Shown here: piece by piece, positions 5,794 through 30,736 of the stretch
Position numbering within the stretch: position 1 is the stretch's first letter
Layout of the letters: each line of letters begins with the position of its first letter
Assembly: GCA_028822065.1 (NCBI GenBank)
Contig: JAPKEL010000006.1
Location: forward strand, 1 to 64,000
Length of the DNA: 64,000 bases
DNA from: Woeseiaceae bacterium
GTDB lineage: Bacteria; Pseudomonadota; Gammaproteobacteria; Steroidobacterales; Woeseiaceae
Direction of reading: 5' to 3'
Made by a program: the position numbers and the translations under genes
The notes under the pieces: model-generated
Database searches by the model: none
What the model saw: only the letters and a program-made list of their open reading frames with translations
Told to the model about the DNA's origin: nothing

Positions 5794-7947
5794 ATGGATT
5801 ACGCGAATCTAATTCGTCAGAAAGTCATCACCGGCGCAAAACAAGAAGAAAAATTACTTCAACAACTGCTTGTTTCGCTTTCTGATTATATGCCAACATC
5901 CGAACAATCGGTTGTGATCAAAGCCTATGAATATGGTGCAAAAGCACATATCGATCAAATCCGATTGAGTGGTGAACCTTATATTTGTCACCCGTTATCA
6001 GTTGCACAAATCCTGGCAAATATGCGAATGGACAACCAAACTATTTGTGCAGCTTTACTTCATGATGTCATTGAAGATACCGACATAAATTTAACTGATT
6101 TAGAAAATATCTTTAATAAAGAAATTGCCATATTGGTTGATAGTGTCAGTAAACTTGATCAAATAACATTTAATAATCGTGCTGAAGCACAAGCTGAAAC
6201 TTTCCGTAAAATGATACTGGCGATGGTTGAAGATATTCGCGTAATATTTATAAAACTATCTGACCGTCTGCATAATATGCGGACCTTGCAGTATCTACCA
6301 GAGCCTAAAAGAAAACTTAAAGCAAAAGAAACATTAGATATTTATGCTCCCATAGCAAATCGATTAGGAATTAATAAAATAAAAAATGAGCTGGAAGACC
6401 TCGGTATACAGCATCTTTTTCCTTATCGTTATCGAGTTATCAGCAAAGCCTTAAAAAAAAGTAAAGGTGGACAAAAAAGAATTGTAAAAAAAATCTCTTC
6501 TCGAATATTAGATGCCATGACTAACGAAAATATTGAGGGTGAAGTCATTGGGAGAGAAAAACAGCTTTATAGTATTTATAAAAAAATGAAAATAAAGAAA
6601 CGCTCCCTCAAAGAGGTAGCTGATGTCTATGGATTTAGAATCATTGTTAATAATGTTAATAATTGCTATCAATTACTTGGAATTATTCACGGACTATACA
6701 AACCCATGCCTGGACGTTTTAAAGATTATATTGCCATCCCAAGAATTAACGGATATCAATCATTGCATACTACTCTTTTTGGGCCTAACGGTTTGCCGCT
6801 AGAAATTCAGATTAGAACGACCGAGATGAATCGACTCGCTGAATCCGGTGTTGCTGCTCACTGGCAATATAAGGCAGTTGATAAAAATACAGCTATACCT
6901 CATCTCCGCACAAGAAAGTGGTTACAAAATATTGGTGAACGTGAAGAGAGCATGAGCTCCGCTGAGTTTTTAGAAAATGTGAAGGTAGATCTGTTCCCAG
7001 ACAAAATATACGTTTTTACTCCTGATGGAGATATTATGCCCCTTCCTAAAGGAGCATCTATTATAGATTTTGCTTATGCAGTTCACACCGATATTGGCAA
7101 TCAATGTGTTGAGGCTGAAATTGATAGAGCCCTTGTCCCGCTTAGAACAATTTTACAAAATGGCCAAACAGTAAAAATCATTACCAGTAAAAATGCCAAC
7201 CCCAATCCAAATTGGATTAACTTTGCTATAACAGCAAAAGCACTTTCTAGCATACAAAATTATTTAAAAACCATTCGCAAAAGTGATGCTTATGAACTTG
7301 GTAAAAAATTACTTAACTCTGCACTTGATGACCTAAATACTTCGATTCGTAAAATTGGAAGAAAACGAAAAAATGAAGTTTTCAAAGAGCTAGGAGTTGA
7401 AAGTTTAAAGCAATTATATCAAGAAATTGGCCTAGGTGATCGACTGGCTCCTTTGACCGCAAGATATCTCGCCGTTGATAAAGACGTTGATATCAAACTT
7501 ACAAAAACTAACCTCGTCATTGAGGGCACAGAAGGAATGATAGTGAGTTATGGGCATTGTTGCTATCCTATTCCTGGTGATGACGTCATGGGCTACATGA
7601 GCTCAGGAAGAGGAGTTGTTATTCATAGAAATAACTGCCGTAATCTAAGAATATTTCGTAAACACCCAACAAAATGGTTATCCGTAAGCTGGCAAAAAAA
7701 TATTAACAGGCAGTTCTCCAGTCAAATTCATGTTGAAACTGAAAATAAAACCGGTGTATTAGCGGAAGTAGCAAGCACTATCGCAGACTCCGATTCTAAT
7801 ATTGAATCAGTGACAGTGGCTAGCCATGAAGATTATTCAGAATTAATTTTCATATTAAATGTTAAAGATAGAATTCATTTAGCACAAATAATCAGAAATA
7901 TAAGGAACATGAAAAAAGTTCATCGCATCACAAGAGAAAAAAACTAA
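5794..7947 (+). CDS. spoT: Bifunctional (p)ppGpp synthetase/hydrolase SpoT
   Basis: Makes and degrades the stringent-response alarmone (p)ppGpp. The 717 residues run in the family order. The HD hydrolase domain has its His90-Asp91 pair in LLHDVIEDT. The synthetase domain carries RFKD (308-311, the basic form found in bifunctional enzymes rather than the acidic one of RelA) and GYQSLH (320-325). A TGS domain spans about 403-463, and the C-terminal ACT domain starts near 640. Both active sites look intact. No second RelA-type gene is in the window. Confidence 0.97.
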   Translation: MDYANLIRQKVITGAKQEEKLLQQLLVSLSDYMPTSEQSVVIKAYEYGAKAHIDQIRLSGEPYICHPLSVAQILANMRMDNQTICAALLHDVIEDTDINLTDLENIFNKEIAILVDSVSKLDQITFNNRAEAQAETFRKMILAMVEDIRVIFIKLSDRLHNMRTLQYLPEPKRKLKAKETLDIYAPIANRLGINKIKNELEDLGIQHLFPYRYRVISKALKKSKGGQKRIVKKISSRILDAMTNENIEGEVIGREKQLYSIYKKMKIKKRSLKEVADVYGFRIIVNNVNNCYQLLGIIHGLYKPMPGRFKDYIAIPRINGYQSLHTTLFGPNGLPLEIQIRTTEMNRLAESGVAAHWQYKAVDKNTAIPHLRTRKWLQNIGEREESMSSAEFLENVKVDLFPDKIYVFTPDGDIMPLPKGASIIDFAYAVHTDIGNQCVEAEIDRALVPLRTILQNGQTVKIITSKNANPNPNWINFAITAKALSSIQNYLKTIRKSDAYELGKKLLNSALDDLNTSIRKIGRKRKNEVFKELGVESLKQLYQEIGLGDRLAPLTARYLAVDKDVDIKLTKTNLVIEGTEGMIVSYGHCCYPIPGDDVMGYMSSGRGVVIHRNNCRNLRIFRKHPTKWLSVSWQKNINRQFSSQIHVETENKTGVLAEVASTIADSDSNIESVTVASHEDYSELIFILNVKDRIHLAQIIRNIRNMKKVHRITREKN

Positions 7948-23099: not shown

Positions 23100-23438
23100 A
23101 TGTCTGGTATTGGCTTTTGGGAATTAATTATTCTCTTCCTGATTGGCCTCATTGTTCTGGGTCCAAAACGTCTACCTCAAGTCGCTAATCAACTGGGCGA
23201 GTGGATAGGCCAGGCAAAAAGGATGACAAGAGTGATGCGGAGGCAGCTCGAAGAAGAGATTGATCTTAATGACTTAGATCAAAATTCAATCAACTTGCCT
23301 AAAGAAGATGTATCAAGACCGCAATTCGTTAATGACAACCCTGACTACAACCAAAGACCGCCTGAGCCTGAAGCTGAGCCTGAAGCTGAGCCTGAAGCTG
23401 AGCCTGAAGCTGAGCCTTCAAGCAAGAATACTAATTAA
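23100..23438 (+). CDS. tatB: Sec-independent translocase subunit TatB with acidic repeat tail
   Basis: TatB works with TatC to recognise twin-arginine signals. The 112-residue product has an N-terminal helix (GFWELIILFLIGLIVLGPKRLP) and an amphipathic helix to about residue 60. The C-terminal tail, about 81-107, is built of repeated Pro-Glu-Ala-Glu units. The helix glutamate (Glu8 in FWELI) is the polar residue characteristic of TatB. The low-complexity tail is encoded by a 12-base tandem repeat and is probably unstructured and variable in length. Confidence 0.93.
   Translation: MSGIGFWELIILFLIGLIVLGPKRLPQVANQLGEWIGQAKRMTRVMRRQLEEEIDLNDLDQNSINLPKEDVSRPQFVNDNPDYNQRPPEPEAEPEAEPEAEPEAEPSSKNTN
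23367..23414 (+). repeat. Four perfect tandem copies of CCTGAAGCTGAG inside tatB
   Basis: The 12-base unit repeats four times without a mismatch and is preceded by a half unit CCTGAG at 23361-23366. Each unit adds Pro-Glu-Ala-Glu without shifting frame. Identical copies suggest recent expansion by slippage. Confidence 0.9.
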
Positions 23439-24248: not shown

Positions 24249-25709
24249 ATGAATGACACAGTTTTGGGACACCCAAAAGGACTGGTAACCCTCTTTTTTA
24301 CCGAGATGTGGGAAAGATTGAGCTTTTATGGAATGAGAGCTCTGCTGGTGCTATTTATGACAGATCAAGTCATCAATGGAGGTATGGGCTTAACCGATGC
24401 CGATGCAACAGCAATTTATGGTATCTATACTGCGCTTGTTTATCTGGTTGCATTACCGGGCGGATGGATTGCTGATCGAATAATTGGAGCACAATCAGCA
24501 ATTTTGGCAGGTGGAATTATTATTATGTGTGGGCATTTTGTGCTTGCCATCCCATCAATAAACACATTTTTTTTAGGTTTACTCTTGGTGATTTTAGGCA
24601 CCGGGCTTTTAAAGCCTAATATAAGCGCAATCCTTGGCGCACTATATATGCGCGGTGATCACAGGAGAGATGCGGGCTTTTCAATCTTTTACATGGGGAT
24701 CAATCTTGGTGGTATGTTAGGTCCAATAATTTGTGGCGCTTTAGCTCAAAATGAAAATTTTGGTTGGCACTATGGCTTTGCTGTTGCTGGAATCGGCATG
24801 CTATTTGGCGTAATTCAATTTTGGAAAACCAGGCAGTATTTGGGTCAAGCAGGCAGGAAAAATATCAATTTCAATATGCGACAAAAGCAATTTTTATTTT
24901 TAGTCTGCATGCTCATCGTGCTCGGATTATTCTGGTTTTCTAGGCTTAATATAGAAAATATCAATTTTATAAAAATCTCTGAAATAACTACCTATATAAT
25001 TTTATTTGCCGCATTTGGTTTTTTTGCCTATGTGCTCCTATTAGGAAAACTAAACACACAAGAACGTAGTCGGGTATGGGTAATAATAGCGCTTTTTCTG
25101 GGGGCCTCTATGTTTTGGGCTGGTTTTGAGCAAGCAGGTTCATCTTTAAATCTATTTGCGAATCGATATACGAAGCTTGAGTTTGGTTGGCTAACGCTCT
25201 ATTCCTCGTGGTTTCAATCAGTCAATTCTATTTTTATAATTATCTTTGCTCCTATGTTTGCTTATTTGTGGATTTGGCTTGCTAAAAAAAATCTCAATCC
25301 ATCTACGCCTACAAAATTTGCTATTGGCTTATTATTTCTAGCACTAGGATTCTTTATGATGGTTATGGCATCTTCCATTGTCGCCAATGGTAATCAGGCC
25401 ATGCCTACCTGGTTATTATTAACTTATCTTTTTCATACATTTGGTGAATTAGCACTCTCTCCAGTAGGGTTGTCAGTTACAACCAAGCTAGCGCCTAAGC
25501 GTTTTGTCGGTCAAATGATGGGTATCTGGTTTGTTGCTTCGGCCTTAGGAAATCTTATTGCAGGGCGCATAGCAGGTGAATTCAATGCAAACAATATATC
25601 TAGCTTTCCTGATCAATACTTCAATATCGTTCTCACCTCCGCTGGAGCTGGAATTATCTTATTACTTGCAAGCAAATCACTTCAAAAACTCATGGGTGAC
25701 GTTGAATAG
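24249..25709 (+). CDS. Proton-dependent oligopeptide transporter (POT/PTR2 family)
   Basis: A major-facilitator membrane protein that imports di- and tripeptides with protons. The 486 residues carry the POT proton-coupling motif ExxER (Glu19, Glu22, Arg23 in TEMWERLSFYGMRALL). The PTR2 segments GGWIADRIIGAQ, GTGLLKPNISAILG and FSIFYMGINLGGMLGP follow, and FGELALSPVGLSVTTKLAP appears late. About fourteen membrane segments are expected. It follows tatC by 42 bases, probably by chance. The exact substrate cannot be read from sequence. Confidence 0.92.
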   Translation: MNDTVLGHPKGLVTLFFTEMWERLSFYGMRALLVLFMTDQVINGGMGLTDADATAIYGIYTALVYLVALPGGWIADRIIGAQSAILAGGIIIMCGHFVLAIPSINTFFLGLLLVILGTGLLKPNISAILGALYMRGDHRRDAGFSIFYMGINLGGMLGPIICGALAQNENFGWHYGFAVAGIGMLFGVIQFWKTRQYLGQAGRKNINFNMRQKQFLFLVCMLIVLGLFWFSRLNIENINFIKISEITTYIILFAAFGFFAYVLLLGKLNTQERSRVWVIIALFLGASMFWAGFEQAGSSLNLFANRYTKLEFGWLTLYSSWFQSVNSIFIIIFAPMFAYLWIWLAKKNLNPSTPTKFAIGLLFLALGFFMMVMASSIVANGNQAMPTWLLLTYLFHTFGELALSPVGLSVTTKLAPKRFVGQMMGIWFVASALGNLIAGRIAGEFNANNISSFPDQYFNIVLTSAGAGIILLLASKSLQKLMGDVE

Positions 25710-25721
25710 TATTCATTACGA

Positions 25722-26528
25722 TTAACCAGATTGTCCTAAGCAAATGCCTGCATAGGCTAGCTTTATCTTTGCATTACCAAGAAAACAACTGTTATCGTAA
25801 GTTTTTCTATCAACTCCACAAACAGGGGCATATTCATGCGAGCAATTTTGACCTTGCGCCTCACATAAGCCGGCATGAAGAATTCTTTCTCCGGCTCGCT
25901 CAGCCACACATGCATTTATAAATGTTTTATTAGTCTTACCGCATACTGGTGCATATATTCCGGTACAAGAACGAGCATCACATGCCCCTTGAGTAAAGTT
26001 TTTGTGCTCTGCAAACTCAGCTAAACACGCATTATTATAGGTAACATTTTCGGCGCAAACTGGCGCAATGATTTCAGGGCATGACTTAACATCACATGCG
26101 CCCATGCTCTGTACTAGCATATTGTCGGTATCGGCTTCACAACGATTTCTGTAGGTTTGCCCATTCATCCCACAAACTGGCTCATATATATTCTGGCATG
26201 CCCCTTGCCCGATACATGCAATCGGTTCAATTATCTCAATGCCCGCCGAAACCGCTAGACAGGCGTTATCATAGGTTATGTTATCAACACCGCATACAGG
26301 AGCATATTCTTTAGAGCATGACATTGAAGGATCTTTGCATACGCCCGTATAATCAATCTCTATAGCGGCTACATCAGCAAAACATACGTTTACAAATGTA
26401 TTGCCATCCATCCCGCAGACAGGTTGAAAATCTTTTTTGCATTTTAGCTGGCTAGTAATGTTTTCATTTTGTGCGGCTGCACTTAATGAAAACATTACCA
26501 GAAGTGAAATAAATGTGTGCTTAAACAT
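25722..26528 (-). CDS. Secreted protein with six Kazal-type protease inhibitor domains
   Basis: A signal peptide (about 1-20, ending SAAAQ) is followed by six consecutive short Kazal-like domains at about 30-64, 71-105, 111-145, 150-183, 188-222 and 229-263. Each has four cysteines in the order C-x7-C-x10-C-to-C with PVCG and TY/TF-xN. Domain 4 is one residue short and lacks the Gly after PVC. The classical first and fifth cysteines are absent, as is usual in bacterial Kazal domains. Aligned to ovomucoid, the P1 positions are Lys32, Lys73, Asn113, Glu152, Gly190 and His231, so the first two domains look trypsin-directed. It begins 3 bases after the methyltransferase gene in a leftward operon headed by an S41 protease. 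Confidence 0.93.
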   Translation of the reverse strand: MFKHTFISLLVMFSLSAAAQNENITSQLKCKKDFQPVCGMDGNTFVNVCFADVAAIEIDYTGVCKDPSMSCSKEYAPVCGVDNITYDNACLAVSAGIEIIEPIACIGQGACQNIYEPVCGMNGQTYRNRCEADTDNMLVQSMGACDVKSCPEIIAPVCAENVTYNNACLAEFAEHKNFTQGACDARSCTGIYAPVCGKTNKTFINACVAERAGERILHAGLCEAQGQNCSHEYAPVCGVDRKTYDNSCFLGNAKIKLAYAGICLGQSG

Positions 26529-26531
26529 GTA

Positions 26532-27149
26532 TTAATTTTTAACCGCTACGCCCCAATAATTATATGAAAAAAGTCGGTATCCTGGAATATACATTCTTTC
26601 ATCTTGTTTCAATATAAAGCCCGCTTCTTGTAATAAAATAGGGATATTACGATTTAAATTACACCCTCCTGCTAATTTTCGCCAGACAGGATTTACTATA
26701 TTTTGTAAAAATTTTACAGGCTCATCTGGGGCGCTGCCATGCTCGGAGAACAATAATTTACCGCCGGGTTTTAAAACTTTTAACATCTGCTGCAACGCTA
26801 ACTCTACATCTGGAATAGTGCAGAGAACATAAGTAACCACAATGGTGTCAATACTCGCTTCTTCAAATGGAAGCTCTTCACTTGGTGTAGTTATAAATTC
26901 AATGTTTAACTGGGAGTCTCTTGGTGCTTTTTTTGCTAAAACCTGCATTCCTTCAGAAGGCTCTAGCGCCCAGATTTTTATCACTTTTTGTGAATCATAA
27001 AAAGGAAAATTTAATCCTGTGCCTACCCCTATTTCAAGGACCACACCTTCAGCGTAAGGAACAATTTTCTGTCTTTGTTTGCTGGCCGGCTTAGAAGAGC
27101 AAGCTAAATTAACCAAATAAGGCAACACTCTTTCTTCATAAATACTCAT
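26532..27149 (-). CDS. Class I SAM-dependent methyltransferase of unknown substrate
   Basis: The 205-residue product has a standard Methyltransf_11 fold. Motif I is VLEIGVGTGLNFPFY near 33-47, the acidic ribose-binding residue is in WALEPSEGM, SEELPFEEASIDTIVVTYVLCTI follows, and LKPGGKLLFSEHG comes after. The C-terminal part (GGCNLNRNIPILLQEAGF) resembles small methyltransferases of the METTL7/phospholipid-like group. The substrate is unknown. It lies 4 bases after the S41 protease gene and 3 bases before the Kazal protein gene, so the three are almost certainly one transcript. Confidence 0.85.
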   Translation of the reverse strand: MSIYEERVLPYLVNLACSSKPASKQRQKIVPYAEGVVLEIGVGTGLNFPFYDSQKVIKIWALEPSEGMQVLAKKAPRDSQLNIEFITTPSEELPFEEASIDTIVVTYVLCTIPDVELALQQMLKVLKPGGKLLFSEHGSAPDEPVKFLQNIVNPVWRKLAGGCNLNRNIPILLQEAGFILKQDERMYIPGYRLFSYNYWGVAVKN

Positions 27150-27153
27150 ATAG

Positions 27154-28377
27154 TTAATGATAATAATTTATGTTGCGATTTAATACATTTATCGCCTCGG
27201 ATAACTGAATATCATTACTTATGTCAGTTTTTGTAGCAGGAAACAAAGATATTGCATAATTGCTGCTTTTAATTAATATATCTGGCCTAATACCCAGCTC
27301 ATTAATTGGCTCACCCGAAGGCCTAAAATAACGTGCGGTTGTTAGCTTTATCGCTCCTCCATCAGACAAAGGAATAACTGATTGTATTGATCCTTTACCA
27401 TAGGTAGCAGTACCAATAATTATGGCTCGCTTGTTATCTTGCATGGCTCCAGCAAAAATCTCTGCCGCAGAAGCAGAATATTTATTCACAATTATTGCAA
27501 TGGGTAAATCTGCTAATATATCATCTTGACTGGCTGAACGAACAAACATTAAATCGTTTTCACGGCCTTTTGCGGACACAATAATACCGCTACTTAAAAA
27601 AAGATCTGATACATCGACAGCGCTCTCTAATGTACCTCCAAGATTGTTACGAATATCAATAATTAATCCTTTAATAGAATTATTTGCAGCCATGACGGAG
27701 CGGCAACTATTACTTATAGCCCGATTTATTTCTAGTTGTGTTTGATTATTAAATTTATCAAGTTTGATATAGCAAAAGTTAGAAGCTAGCATTTCTGAAT
27801 ACACGCTTGGTATGTATATTTTTTCACGCATCAATTTAATGCGCGTTACTTCATTGGTTATTAATTTTTTGATCAAAAGGCTTACTTCGGTTCCAATTTT
27901 ACCGTCAAGCTGGTGCGATATAACAGGCAAGGTATTGCCCGTTAATCGCTCATTATTAATTTCAATTATTTCATCACCAAGCCCAATCCCGGCATGAAAT
28001 GCAGCGGAGTTTTTTATAACATCAGCAATCTTGATATGGCCCGAATCCTGATAAACCGTCACTCCAATCCCTGAATAGACGCCCTCTGCTGAAATACGCA
28101 CTTGTCGATAATCATCGTCACTCAAAATCTCAGAATACTCATCCAAACCAGACAAGATTCCAGTAACAGCGCTATTAATCAAAACATCATAATCGACCTC
28201 ATCAACATACTCTGATTGTATCTGTTTGATGATTTCATTAAATAATGATGGAGCCTTATAAGTTTTTGACTCAATATAATAAGGAGATAAATAATCATTA
28301 CTTAAGCTTAAAATTAAGCTTAAAATAATACCCACAATAATAGCTAAAACGCCTCGTTCTTTTATGGTCATATTCAA
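27154..28377 (-). CDS. ctpA: C-terminal processing peptidase, S41A family
   Basis: A periplasmic or membrane-anchored serine protease of the CtpA/Prc group. The 407-residue product has an N-terminal membrane anchor (about 9-27), a PDZ domain near 95-180 (YSGIGVTV, AGIGLGDEIIEIN), and the peptidase core. The catalytic serine lies within SASAAEIF (301-308) and the general-base lysine is Lys328 in TYGKGS. The gene heads the leftward protease-methyltransferase-Kazal operon and is divergent from the rhodanese gene. In pseudomonads ctpA also lies near the rhodanese-grxC-secB group, but with gpmI and envC between them. Those are missing here. Confidence 0.93.
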   Translation of the reverse strand: MNMTIKERGVLAIIVGIILSLILSLSNDYLSPYYIESKTYKAPSLFNEIIKQIQSEYVDEVDYDVLINSAVTGILSGLDEYSEILSDDDYRQVRISAEGVYSGIGVTVYQDSGHIKIADVIKNSAAFHAGIGLGDEIIEINNERLTGNTLPVISHQLDGKIGTEVSLLIKKLITNEVTRIKLMREKIYIPSVYSEMLASNFCYIKLDKFNNQTQLEINRAISNSCRSVMAANNSIKGLIIDIRNNLGGTLESAVDVSDLFLSSGIIVSAKGRENDLMFVRSASQDDILADLPIAIIVNKYSASAAEIFAGAMQDNKRAIIIGTATYGKGSIQSVIPLSDGGAIKLTTARYFRPSGEPINELGIRPDILIKSSNYAISLFPATKTDISNDIQLSEAINVLNRNINYYH

Positions 28378-28513: not shown

Positions 28514-28942
28514 ATGAATATCTACGAATTTATAAGTGATCATCTCATATTAACTTTTGGTTTAATTCTGAGCTTACTATTATTAATTTTCAATGAGCTC
28601 AAAGTAAAGCAGCAAAATATTGCTAATATTGATCCCTTTAAAGCGGTCAATTTAATGAATGCTGGCGCTAAGGTCATAGACATAAGATCACCAGAGGCAT
28701 TCAAGACAGGTCATATAGTCAACTCAAAAAATATGTCTCTAGATCAACTCAATGGCAATCAAAAAAAATTAAACAAAATAAAAAATCGCTCAACAATAAT
28801 TATTTGTGACAACGGTGTAGCGTCCAGCAAAGCTGTAAACTCTCTTAGAGCTTCAGGCCAAGACAATATTTATGGTATCAGCGGGGGTATCGCAGGCTGG
28901 ACAGAGGCTAATATGCCATTAATTACTAAACATAAAAAATAA
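28514..28942 (+). CDS. Membrane-anchored rhodanese-like sulfurtransferase (YibN type)
   Basis: The 142 residues have one N-terminal membrane helix (about 11-27) and a single rhodanese domain. The putative active-site cysteine is Cys98 in IIICDNGVASS, and VIDIRSPEAFKTGHI and GISGGIAGWTEANMPL frame the domain. It corresponds to yibN, upstream of grxC and secB in many gammaproteobacteria, and ends one base before the grxC ATG. The physiological role in this family is not settled; sulfur transfer or membrane-protein biogenesis have been discussed. Confidence 0.9.
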   Translation: MNIYEFISDHLILTFGLILSLLLLIFNELKVKQQNIANIDPFKAVNLMNAGAKVIDIRSPEAFKTGHIVNSKNMSLDQLNGNQKKLNKIKNRSTIIICDNGVASSKAVNSLRASGQDNIYGISGGIAGWTEANMPLITKHKK

Positions 28943-28943
28943 C

Positions 28944-29204
28944 ATGCTCAATAAAAACAAAGTGACAATTTATACGGCCTGGTATTGCTCATTTTGTGAC
29001 GATGCAAAAAAAATATTGGACAACAACAAAATTGACTACACTGAAATCCCAACAAGCAAGAATAATGAAACGTGGCAAGAAATGGTAAAATTAAGCGATA
29101 AAAACACAGTGCCTCAGATTTTTATAAATAATAAGGCAATTGGTGGTTTTGATAACTTGTCCTTACTCAATAATAACGGTGAACTTAATAAACTGTTAAA
29201 ATAA
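28944..29204 (+). CDS. grxC: Glutaredoxin 3-like protein with CSFC active site
   Basis: A small thiol oxidoreductase that uses glutathione. The 86-residue product has the thioredoxin fold with active-site cysteines Cys15 and Cys18 (WYCSFC) and the cis-proline segment TVPQIFIN followed by IGGFDNL. The usual glutaredoxin motif is CPYC. Here Pro is replaced by Ser and Tyr by Phe, which should shift the redox potential or preference for monothiol chemistry. It is placed between the rhodanese and secB as in E. coli. Confidence 0.93.
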   Translation: MLNKNKVTIYTAWYCSFCDDAKKILDNNKIDYTEIPTSKNNETWQEMVKLSDKNTVPQIFINNKAIGGFDNLSLLNNNGELNKLLK

Positions 29205-29234
29205 TTAATCTTAAAAAAATTTAAGGAACTTAAT

Positions 29235-29723
29235 ATGTCAGAAGAAGAAACTCCCACAAAACAAATCATTATTCAAAAGCTATACATAAAAGATGCGTCA
29301 TTTGAATCACCAAATACGCCAAATGTATTCAAAGGTGGCGAATGGAATCCTAAAACTGATCTCAATCTAAGCAGCAGCCATGTTCCTTATGAAGATGATA
29401 CTCATGAAGTGGTTTTGACCATTACTGTTGAGGCAAAAGACGAAGATAATGTCATTTTTTTGGTTGAGTTAAAACAAGCAGGCTTGTTCCAAATAAGCGG
29501 CTATGAAGAAAAAGAGCTTGAAACAATTATAGGCATATTTTGCCCTAATACTCTTTTTCCTTATGCTCGTGAATCAATCGCTAATATTATAACAAAGGGT
29601 GGCTTTCCAGAGTTCTTGTTACAGCCAATAAACTTTGATGCTCTTTACAACGAATCAAAAAAAAGAGCAGCTTCTCCGACCGCTGATATAGAAGATAAAG
29701 GTGCTTCGGAGACAACCCACTGA
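29235..29723 (+). CDS. secB: Protein-export chaperone SecB
   Basis: SecB holds preproteins unfolded and delivers them to SecA. The 162 residues show the family pattern QKLYIKDASFESPNTP near the start, EVVLTITVEAK, VELKQAGLF, and the C-terminal CPNTLFPYARESIANIITKGGFPEFLLQPINF. The stop TGA at 29721-29723 overlaps the proposed CTG start of gpsA in a CTGA arrangement. This would couple translation of the two genes. Confidence 0.97.
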   Translation: MSEEETPTKQIIIQKLYIKDASFESPNTPNVFKGGEWNPKTDLNLSSSHVPYEDDTHEVVLTITVEAKDEDNVIFLVELKQAGLFQISGYEEKELETIIGIFCPNTLFPYARESIANIITKGGFPEFLLQPINFDALYNESKKRAASPTADIEDKGASETTH

Positions 29724-30736
29724 ATATTATTGATCAATCCTCTGAACTAGGGTCAATTACAATTATTGGCTCTGGATCTTGGGGGACTGCGTTAGCATTG
29801 CAACTATCAGCCAAGCAATACATAGTAAAAGTGTGGGGTAGAAACTCTGCCTACATCGAAACAATAAATAAAAATCGAGAAAACAAACAATATTTACCCG
29901 GTATTAAGTTGCCAGAAAATATTCAATTTTTCTCAAATCTTAAAGAATCCATACAAGATTCTGATGTGGTATTAATTGCCACCCCAAGTAAAGGCTTTAG
30001 AAATATCTTGATAAATCTAAAGGCGCTTGGAAGTGAATTTGATATCTGCTGGGCAACTAAAGGATTTGAAGTTGACACAGGATTATTGCCACATAATATT
30101 TGCGAAGAAATTTTTGGGCAGAATCAAAATATGGCCGTTATATCCGGACCTTCCTTTGCGGCAGAAGTTGCACAAAAGAAACCCACAGCCGTTACGGTTG
30201 CTTCAAATAACCTAAACTTTAGTAAACATATTGCATCAAGCCTGTCTGATATAAACTTTCGGGCCTATACCACCCAAGATATTACAGGTGTTGAGATTGG
30301 TGGTGCAATCAAAAATATTATTGCTATTGGTGCCGGCATATCAGATGGTTTAAATTATGGTGATAATGCACGTATTGCATTAATTAATCGTGGATTAGTT
30401 GAAATGCAAAGGCTCGGTGTGTCACTTGGTGCGGATAAGAATACTTTTCTTGGTTTGTCTGGAATGGGCGATTTAGTCTTGACCTGTACAAGCGATCTTT
30501 CCCGTAATCGGCGCTTTGGCCTTGCTATTGCTAAAGGGAATTCCATATCGAAAGCTAGAAGTGATATTAATCAAGTCATCGAAGGAATTGATGCAACTGC
30601 CGCTGTATTTAGGTTGTCAAAAAAAATGAATATCAAGATGCCCATTTGCAAAACGATAAGCCGGATTATTTTTGAGGACCTCAAGCCAAGCCTCGCAGTT
30701 GAAGAGCTAATGTCTAGAGATCTTCAGACTGAATGA
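29720..30736 (+). CDS. gpsA: Glycerol-3-phosphate dehydrogenase [NAD(P)+] with a non-canonical start
   Basis: Makes sn-glycerol 3-phosphate for phospholipid synthesis. The first ATG/GTG/TTG in frame is TTG at 29798, but starting there would delete the nucleotide-binding loop. ITIIGSGSWGTALAL is encoded just upstream in the same open frame (Gly-rich loop at 29768-29785). The best upstream start is CTG at 29720, in a CTGA overlap with the secB stop and 8 bases after GGAG (29708-29711). That gives 338 residues, the family length. Other motifs are intact: WATKGFE, VISGPSFAAEVA, the catalytic Lys in GGAIKNIIAIGAG, and TCTSDLSRNRRFG. Confidence 0.9.
   Translation: MNIIDQSSELGSITIIGSGSWGTALALQLSAKQYIVKVWGRNSAYIETINKNRENKQYLPGIKLPENIQFFSNLKESIQDSDVVLIATPSKGFRNILINLKALGSEFDICWATKGFEVDTGLLPHNICEEIFGQNQNMAVISGPSFAAEVAQKKPTAVTVASNNLNFSKHIASSLSDINFRAYTTQDITGVEIGGAIKNIIAIGAGISDGLNYGDNARIALINRGLVEMQRLGVSLGADKNTFLGLSGMGDLVLTCTSDLSRNRRFGLAIAKGNSISKARSDINQVIEGIDATAAVFRLSKKMNIKMPICKTISRIIFEDLKPSLAVEELMSRDLQTE

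Follow-up and report, generated by a model that had tools for sequence, protein, structure and literature searches.

The window analysed in this study is a stretch of 64,000 nucleotides from a Woeseiaceae bacterium. Three genes lie together on its reverse strand: ctpA, encoding an S41 C-terminal processing protease with a PDZ domain (27154..28371; Pfam Peptidase_S41, 4.7e-49, plus PDZ), an intact ORF for a class I SAM methyltransferase (26532..27149; Methyltransf_11, 7.8e-19), and an intact ORF for a Kazal protein of six domains and 268 aa (25722..26528; Kazal_1, E = 3.7e-40, six stretches). The ORF list and Pfam bore out the preliminary description of three same-strand ORFs, all of them intact, with gaps of 4 bases between ctpA and the methyltransferase gene (27150-27153) and 3 bases between the latter and the Kazal gene (26529-26531). 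Because the gaps are tiny and the gene order is conserved, the co-transcription claimed there is well supported. Scans for promoters and terminators within the window operon gave results at chance level. On the forward strand, divergent genes for rhodanese, grx, secB and gpsA (28514..30736; from the ORF list and relatives' loci) mark the locus in relatives. The Kazal stop codon is 12 bases from a convergent gene for a POT-type peptide transporter (24249..25709, forward strand; family assigned by inspection), an adjacency also present in part of the relatives. A POT-type transporter gene also neighbours the Kazal gene in a number of Woeseiaceae genera, with widely differing distances between the two.

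The S41 ORF was called from a TTG start at 28377 (27154-28377). The ATG at 28371 (MTIKER...) is the more likely start, as it aligns better with relatives (for example VTSIKTR...). The protein matches TIGR00225 (prc) with 275 bits, and its best PDB match is CtpA of Pseudomonas aeruginosa. Its triad, Ser301-Lys326-Gln330 counted from the ATG at 28371, has the same spacing as that of P. aeruginosa CtpA, Ser302-Lys327-Gln331 (PMC8764530). With an S41 domain, a PDZ domain, a Ser-Lys-Gln triad and CtpA spacing, the predicted protein fits the CtpA type (S41A). The protease had been described as an S41 periplasmic serine protease; the family assignment held, and TIGR00225 points to a C-terminal processing protease instead of a general periplasmic one. 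A TPR protein gene lies beside lolB in the window genome (G000) and in G013. In G000 this TPR protein is a likely candidate for LbcA, the TPR lipoprotein adaptor that activates CtpA. Replacement of LbcA by the Kazal chain was considered and is unsupported, as the TPR protein adjoins lolB in both reduced and large genomes.

The Kazal protein begins with a predicted Sec-type signal peptide (MFKHTFISLLVMFSLSAAA; approximately 26472..26528, reverse strand), which was read from the sequence by inspection and corresponds to a helix at residues 4-19 in the AlphaFold model. Among its homologues, an A-x-A or AQ site was present in 62 of 68, and a lipobox-like string in 7 of 68. Six Kazal domains follow on the reverse strand: domain 1 (26337..26441, loop CKKDFQPVC), domain 2 (26214..26318, CSKEYAPVC), domain 3 (26094..26198, CQNIYEPVC, with conserved NRC and VQ outside the loop), domain 4 (25980..26081, CPEIIAPVC), domain 5 (25863..25967, CTGIYAPVC, with the motif NACxAER, whose N, A, E and R are invariant in 69/69 sequences) and domain 6 (25740..25844, CSHEYAPVC, with a conserved AYAG). 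The P1 residues of domains 1-6 are Lys, Lys, Asn, Glu, Gly and His. Gly and Asn are poor P1 residues. The protein scored 136.1 bits in six stretches with the PF00050 profile, against a cut-off of 21. Every domain has four cysteines, with the positions of the C2-C4 and C3-C6 pairs present and the C1-C5 pair of classical Kazal domains absent. The secreted six-domain Kazal inhibitor that had been proposed thus stands as to its domain number and predicted export; its domains are of the four-cysteine, not the six-cysteine, kind. Because the C1-C5 pair is missing throughout, it is not a classical Kazal inhibitor, and in family terms its sequence makes it a non-classical Kazal protein (MEROPS I1, PF00050). 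All six domains retain P3 Cys and P15' Asn, which support the canonical loop (Asn at N47, N88, N128, N166, N205 and N246); PMC1236909 describes the two as the conserved contact residues.

The AlphaFold model had a mean pLDDT of 85.2 and was confident for each domain; with a pTM of 0.55, the relative placement of the domains is not confident. Superposition of single domains of this predicted model gave an rmsd of 0.4-0.7 Å to CrSPI-1, the leech-derived tryptase inhibitor LDTI and silk protease inhibitor 2, so the modelled domains have the Kazal fold. Follistatin chains were among the top fold matches, mostly since both are multi-domain chains. CrSPI-1 of the horseshoe crab (PDB 3qtl, 3pis) is likewise secreted and multi-headed and contains a four-cysteine domain with C2-C4 and C3-C6 pairs; its loop CPHTYKPVC is close to that of window domain 6. 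It differs in being an animal protein of two domains, one of which has six cysteines, with demonstrated inhibition and no operon context. CrSPI-1 belongs to non-classical group I, and its domain 1 has P1 His and is part of a nanomolar subtilisin inhibitor; P1 Glu is also known in subtilisin inhibitors (PMC3082530). EPI1a of Phytophthora is a two-disulphide Kazal domain that lacks a different pair and is a working inhibitor (PMC1236909). LDTI (PDB 1ldt, 1an1) shares the fold over one domain (rmsd 0.5-0.7 Å), and differs in being a single domain with extra cysteines and demonstrated inhibition of trypsin and tryptase. Its loop, of the CPK-(I/V) type, resembles loops in the third-to-last domain of the Woeseiaceae chains.

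Residue types at P1 were compared with those at 60 other variable positions among 69 distinct, related sequences, a comparison picked with the data already in view. Val, Ile, Thr and Pro made up 2.4% at P1 and 27% at the other positions (411 cells; resampling P = 0.00025), and Lys and Arg made up 26.5% and 7.5% (411 cells). This bias is as might be expected of a working P1 residue, and the backbone geometry of the loop could cause part of it. P1 class is specific to the head and stable from one genus to another: the first head is mostly CTMQY (P1 Met) in many members, the fifth head from the end has P1 Glu or Asp in 59/68, and the last head has P1 Arg in 44/69. The variability of P1 ranked among the highest in domains 4 and 5 and in the middle range in domains 1, 2 and 6. 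The most conserved residues of the Kazal protein are located outside the reactive loops. R186, N205, A206, E210, R211, A260 and G261, which are specific to a domain or linker, were invariant in 69/69 sequences, N205 doubling as the loop-supporting Asn of its domain. R129 and Q140, also outside the loops, were near-invariant. Such invariant positions would fit a constant interface, whether it joins the domains to one another or the chain to a second protein.

Far from being absent in sister species, the ctpA-Kazal arrangement was found to be kept family-wide and is therefore no coincidence. In the Woeseiaceae locus, secB, grx and rhodanese genes lie on one strand and, divergently, envC, ctpA, yibQ/sddA, the methyltransferase gene in some cases, and the Kazal gene; yibQ encodes a divergent polysaccharide deacetylase. 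Of the 50 distinct loci in which ctpA and the Kazal gene were both assembled, every one had ctpA upstream of the Kazal gene on the same strand, at most about 2.5 kb away, and further loci agree. The methyltransferase gene is optional (20 of 50 loci). The family-wide unit is therefore envC-ctpA-yibQ-(methyltransferase)-Kazal rather than the trio of the preliminary description, whose methyltransferase member is missing in 30 of 50 loci. In locus L060, a NUDIX hydrolase gene (7162-7701) lies between yibQ and the Kazal gene, in the slot that the methyltransferase gene takes in other relatives. The trio as a three-gene functional unit was rejected on these two grounds, the count of loci and the replacement in L060. 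No NCBIfam equivalog reached its cut-off for the methyltransferase, which resembles phospholipid N-methyltransferase PmtA weakly (57.9 bits against a cut-off of 390).

In the window genus, envC and yibQ have disappeared from the locus; ctpA and the Kazal gene are retained. No PF04748 (yibQ) match was found in genomes G000-G004 or G007, and a search for EnvC in the genus returned only weak M23-domain matches. The genus has seemingly lost yibQ/sddA and the long EnvC, both of them cell-wall factors of cell division; it still has other M23-domain proteins. In two loci of other genera (L049 and L202), yibQ is also absent, with ctpA and the Kazal gene present. From these losses it follows that ctpA is the constant partner of the Kazal gene and that the window trio is what is left of a larger operon. 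Other families of the order have envC-ctpA-yibQ without a Kazal gene (most of L190-L200). P. aeruginosa has an envC-ctpA-PA5135 (yibQ/sddA) operon, also without one (PMC12569750). The Woeseiaceae gene order is identical to that of P. aeruginosa with the Kazal gene appended, and the two CtpA proteins are orthologous by sequence and triad; the window genus differs in having no envC or yibQ at the locus and an added methyltransferase gene. Among Kazal carriers outside Woeseiaceae, a ctpA, envC or yibQ homologue was nearby in 0 of 51 loci.

Genome counts were made on samples of genomes, not all genomes, with a single E-value limit of 1e-6. At this limit, 99 of 107 Woeseiaceae genomes gave a Kazal profile match; by a count from the table, so did 43 of the 45 with a completeness of 90% or more and little contamination. 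Elsewhere in the order the figure was 1 of 289 genomes, and a sample across Gammaproteobacteria gave 2 of 369, both of them Woeseiaceae. None of the eight Woeseiaceae negatives had the Kazal site assembled with the gene missing. Real loss was rejected as their explanation: in G242, G325, G023 and G250 the contigs end before the site, and G246, G005, G006 and G008 are incomplete genomes that have no ctpA of this type either. The named relatives among GTDB genomes belong to Woeseiaceae, and the chain has six to eight Kazal domains in the family. Woeseiaceae are among the commonest sea-floor bacteria. A multi-headed putative inhibitor in nearly every member, absent from other sampled Gammaproteobacteria bar 1/289, is a lineage-defining trait, and its lock to ctpA connects a fold of animal-type inhibitors with turnover of the bacterial cell wall. 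In the literature searched, which mostly excludes subscription journals, no paper on Woeseiaceae and Kazal proteins together was found, and inhibitors are unreported in the main comparative study of Woeseiales peptidases (PMC7082342).

We believe that the Kazal protein may be a periplasmic multi-headed inhibitor that protects the envelope against proteases, including foreign ones, and we give this reading a probability of about 0.42; the localisation, the inhibition, its targets and the protection are what we infer. The non-classical chain, made last from the ctpA cell-wall operon, would leave the cytoplasm by the Sec pathway for the periplasm and perhaps beyond, and each domain would present one canonical loop. 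Proteases of trypsin-like, Glu-specific and subtilisin-like type arriving at the envelope would be trapped by six to eight heads with differing P1 residues, and the trapping would protect the envelope machinery translated from one mRNA with the inhibitor. For the window genus, the enzymes trapped would be foreign ones, from lysed neighbours, predators or grazers; in protease-rich relatives, misrouted own enzymes might be targets too. This reading draws on the Kazal fold, P3 Cys and P15' Asn, the likeness to CrSPI-1, the P1 bias and the head-specific P1 classes. It is also supported by retention of the gene in genomes of 1.1-1.9 Mb that lost S8 proteases entirely or nearly. Counting against it are the Gly and Asn among the window P1 residues and the possible part of loop geometry in the bias. 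The precedent of follistatin, whose Kazal domains bind ligands and not proteases, would by analogy also count against it. The conserved residues outside the loops and the constant adjacency to ctpA are unexplained by inhibition alone.

A protective role could also be directed inward. The Kazal protein might shield the cell from its own secreted S1 and S8 proteases, used on detrital protein. Both trypsin and chymotrypsin activity are on record for Woeseia oceani, and the same study lists S1 and S8 homologues in every Woeseiales genome that it examined (PMC7082342); larger Woeseiaceae genomes had 1-11 S8 matches in our searches. However, no S8 match was found in G000, G001, G003 or G007 (a genome of the same genus, with locus L065), yet all keep six heads. 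In the 1.96 Mb genome G000, which is 93.65% complete so that a missed gene is possible, the single PF00089 (S1) match is of the HtrA type with PDZ domains. Head number did not rise with S8 number either; such tracking was tried and rejected (rs = 0.24, P = 0.41, n = 14, negative in large genomes, kinship uncorrected). For these reasons, self-protection, as suggested in the preliminary description, is a poor explanation for the window genus, for which foreign proteases or a CtpA-related role remain, and we regard it as improbable for the family. The chain, rich in disulphides, might instead have no inhibitory role and serve a structural or ligand-binding purpose at the wall or outer membrane, in the manner of follistatin; this is also quite doubtful. 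The follistatin fold matches, the conserved non-loop surfaces and the variable P1, including Gly, argue for it, but all domains keep the canonical loop supports, and the P1 bias and head-specific classes argue the other way.

The link between the Kazal gene and ctpA is real, and its mechanism is unexplained. The chain might be a partner or regulator of the CtpA system that binds CtpA, LbcA or a wall substrate, other than as a canonical CtpA inhibitor; we consider this rather unlikely. In its favour, ctpA alone is the constant partner, staying with the Kazal gene where yibQ or envC was lost, the near-invariant domain-specific residues lie outside the reactive loops, and the probable LbcA is kept in G000. 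In addition, CtpA activity in P. aeruginosa falls when growth is rapid, for reasons still to be explained (PMC12569750). On the other hand, families of the order without a Kazal gene share envC-ctpA-yibQ, so that CtpA presumably works there without it, and operon inertia can preserve gene order. P1 is also highly variable in domains 3 to 5, and a residue that ranks with the more variable sites is not what one would expect if P1 docked in a single conserved enzyme. To our knowledge, no Kazal protein acts on S41 proteases. A direct enzyme-inhibitor pair, as raised in the preliminary description, is conceivable; what the analysis shows is the operon linkage. It is unlikely that the chain is a dedicated part of the CtpA system that controls or scaffolds the S41 protease and its TPR adaptor, with variable heads that are secondarily defensive; if true, it would be the first example of such a function in a Kazal-type protein.

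A comparable role as envelope-protecting inhibitor has been proposed for ecotin of E. coli, a periplasmic guard against proteases entering through an outer membrane that is damaged (PMC9904509). Ecotin is a dimer of single-domain chains of unrelated fold and family, and the comparison concerns only the way of working. Multi-Kazal proteins of Saprospiraceae, Myxococcota and Planctomycetota are likewise bacterial and are 24-41% identical to the window protein in the best segment; they differ in architecture and gene context, and several have lipobox-like N termini. Bacterial multi-Kazal proteins as such are thus already known, and what is new is the lineage-wide presence and the lock to the ctpA operon. 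Separate multi-Kazal proteins with lipobox-like N termini, a recurring 'CIDxxKI' spacer and no connection to ctpA are encoded in MAGs of Saprospiraceae and other Bacteroidetes (L094, L097, L100, L101 and L103).

Short tandem repeats were also observed in the window. The region of ctpA that codes for the N-terminal membrane segment contains 2.1 copies of TTAAGCTTAAAA (28302-28326). A tatB-like ORF (23100-23438) has at its end a perfect tandem repeat with a unit of 12 bases (23360-23417), which codes for EPEAEPEAEPEA... in 4.7 copies with 100% matches.
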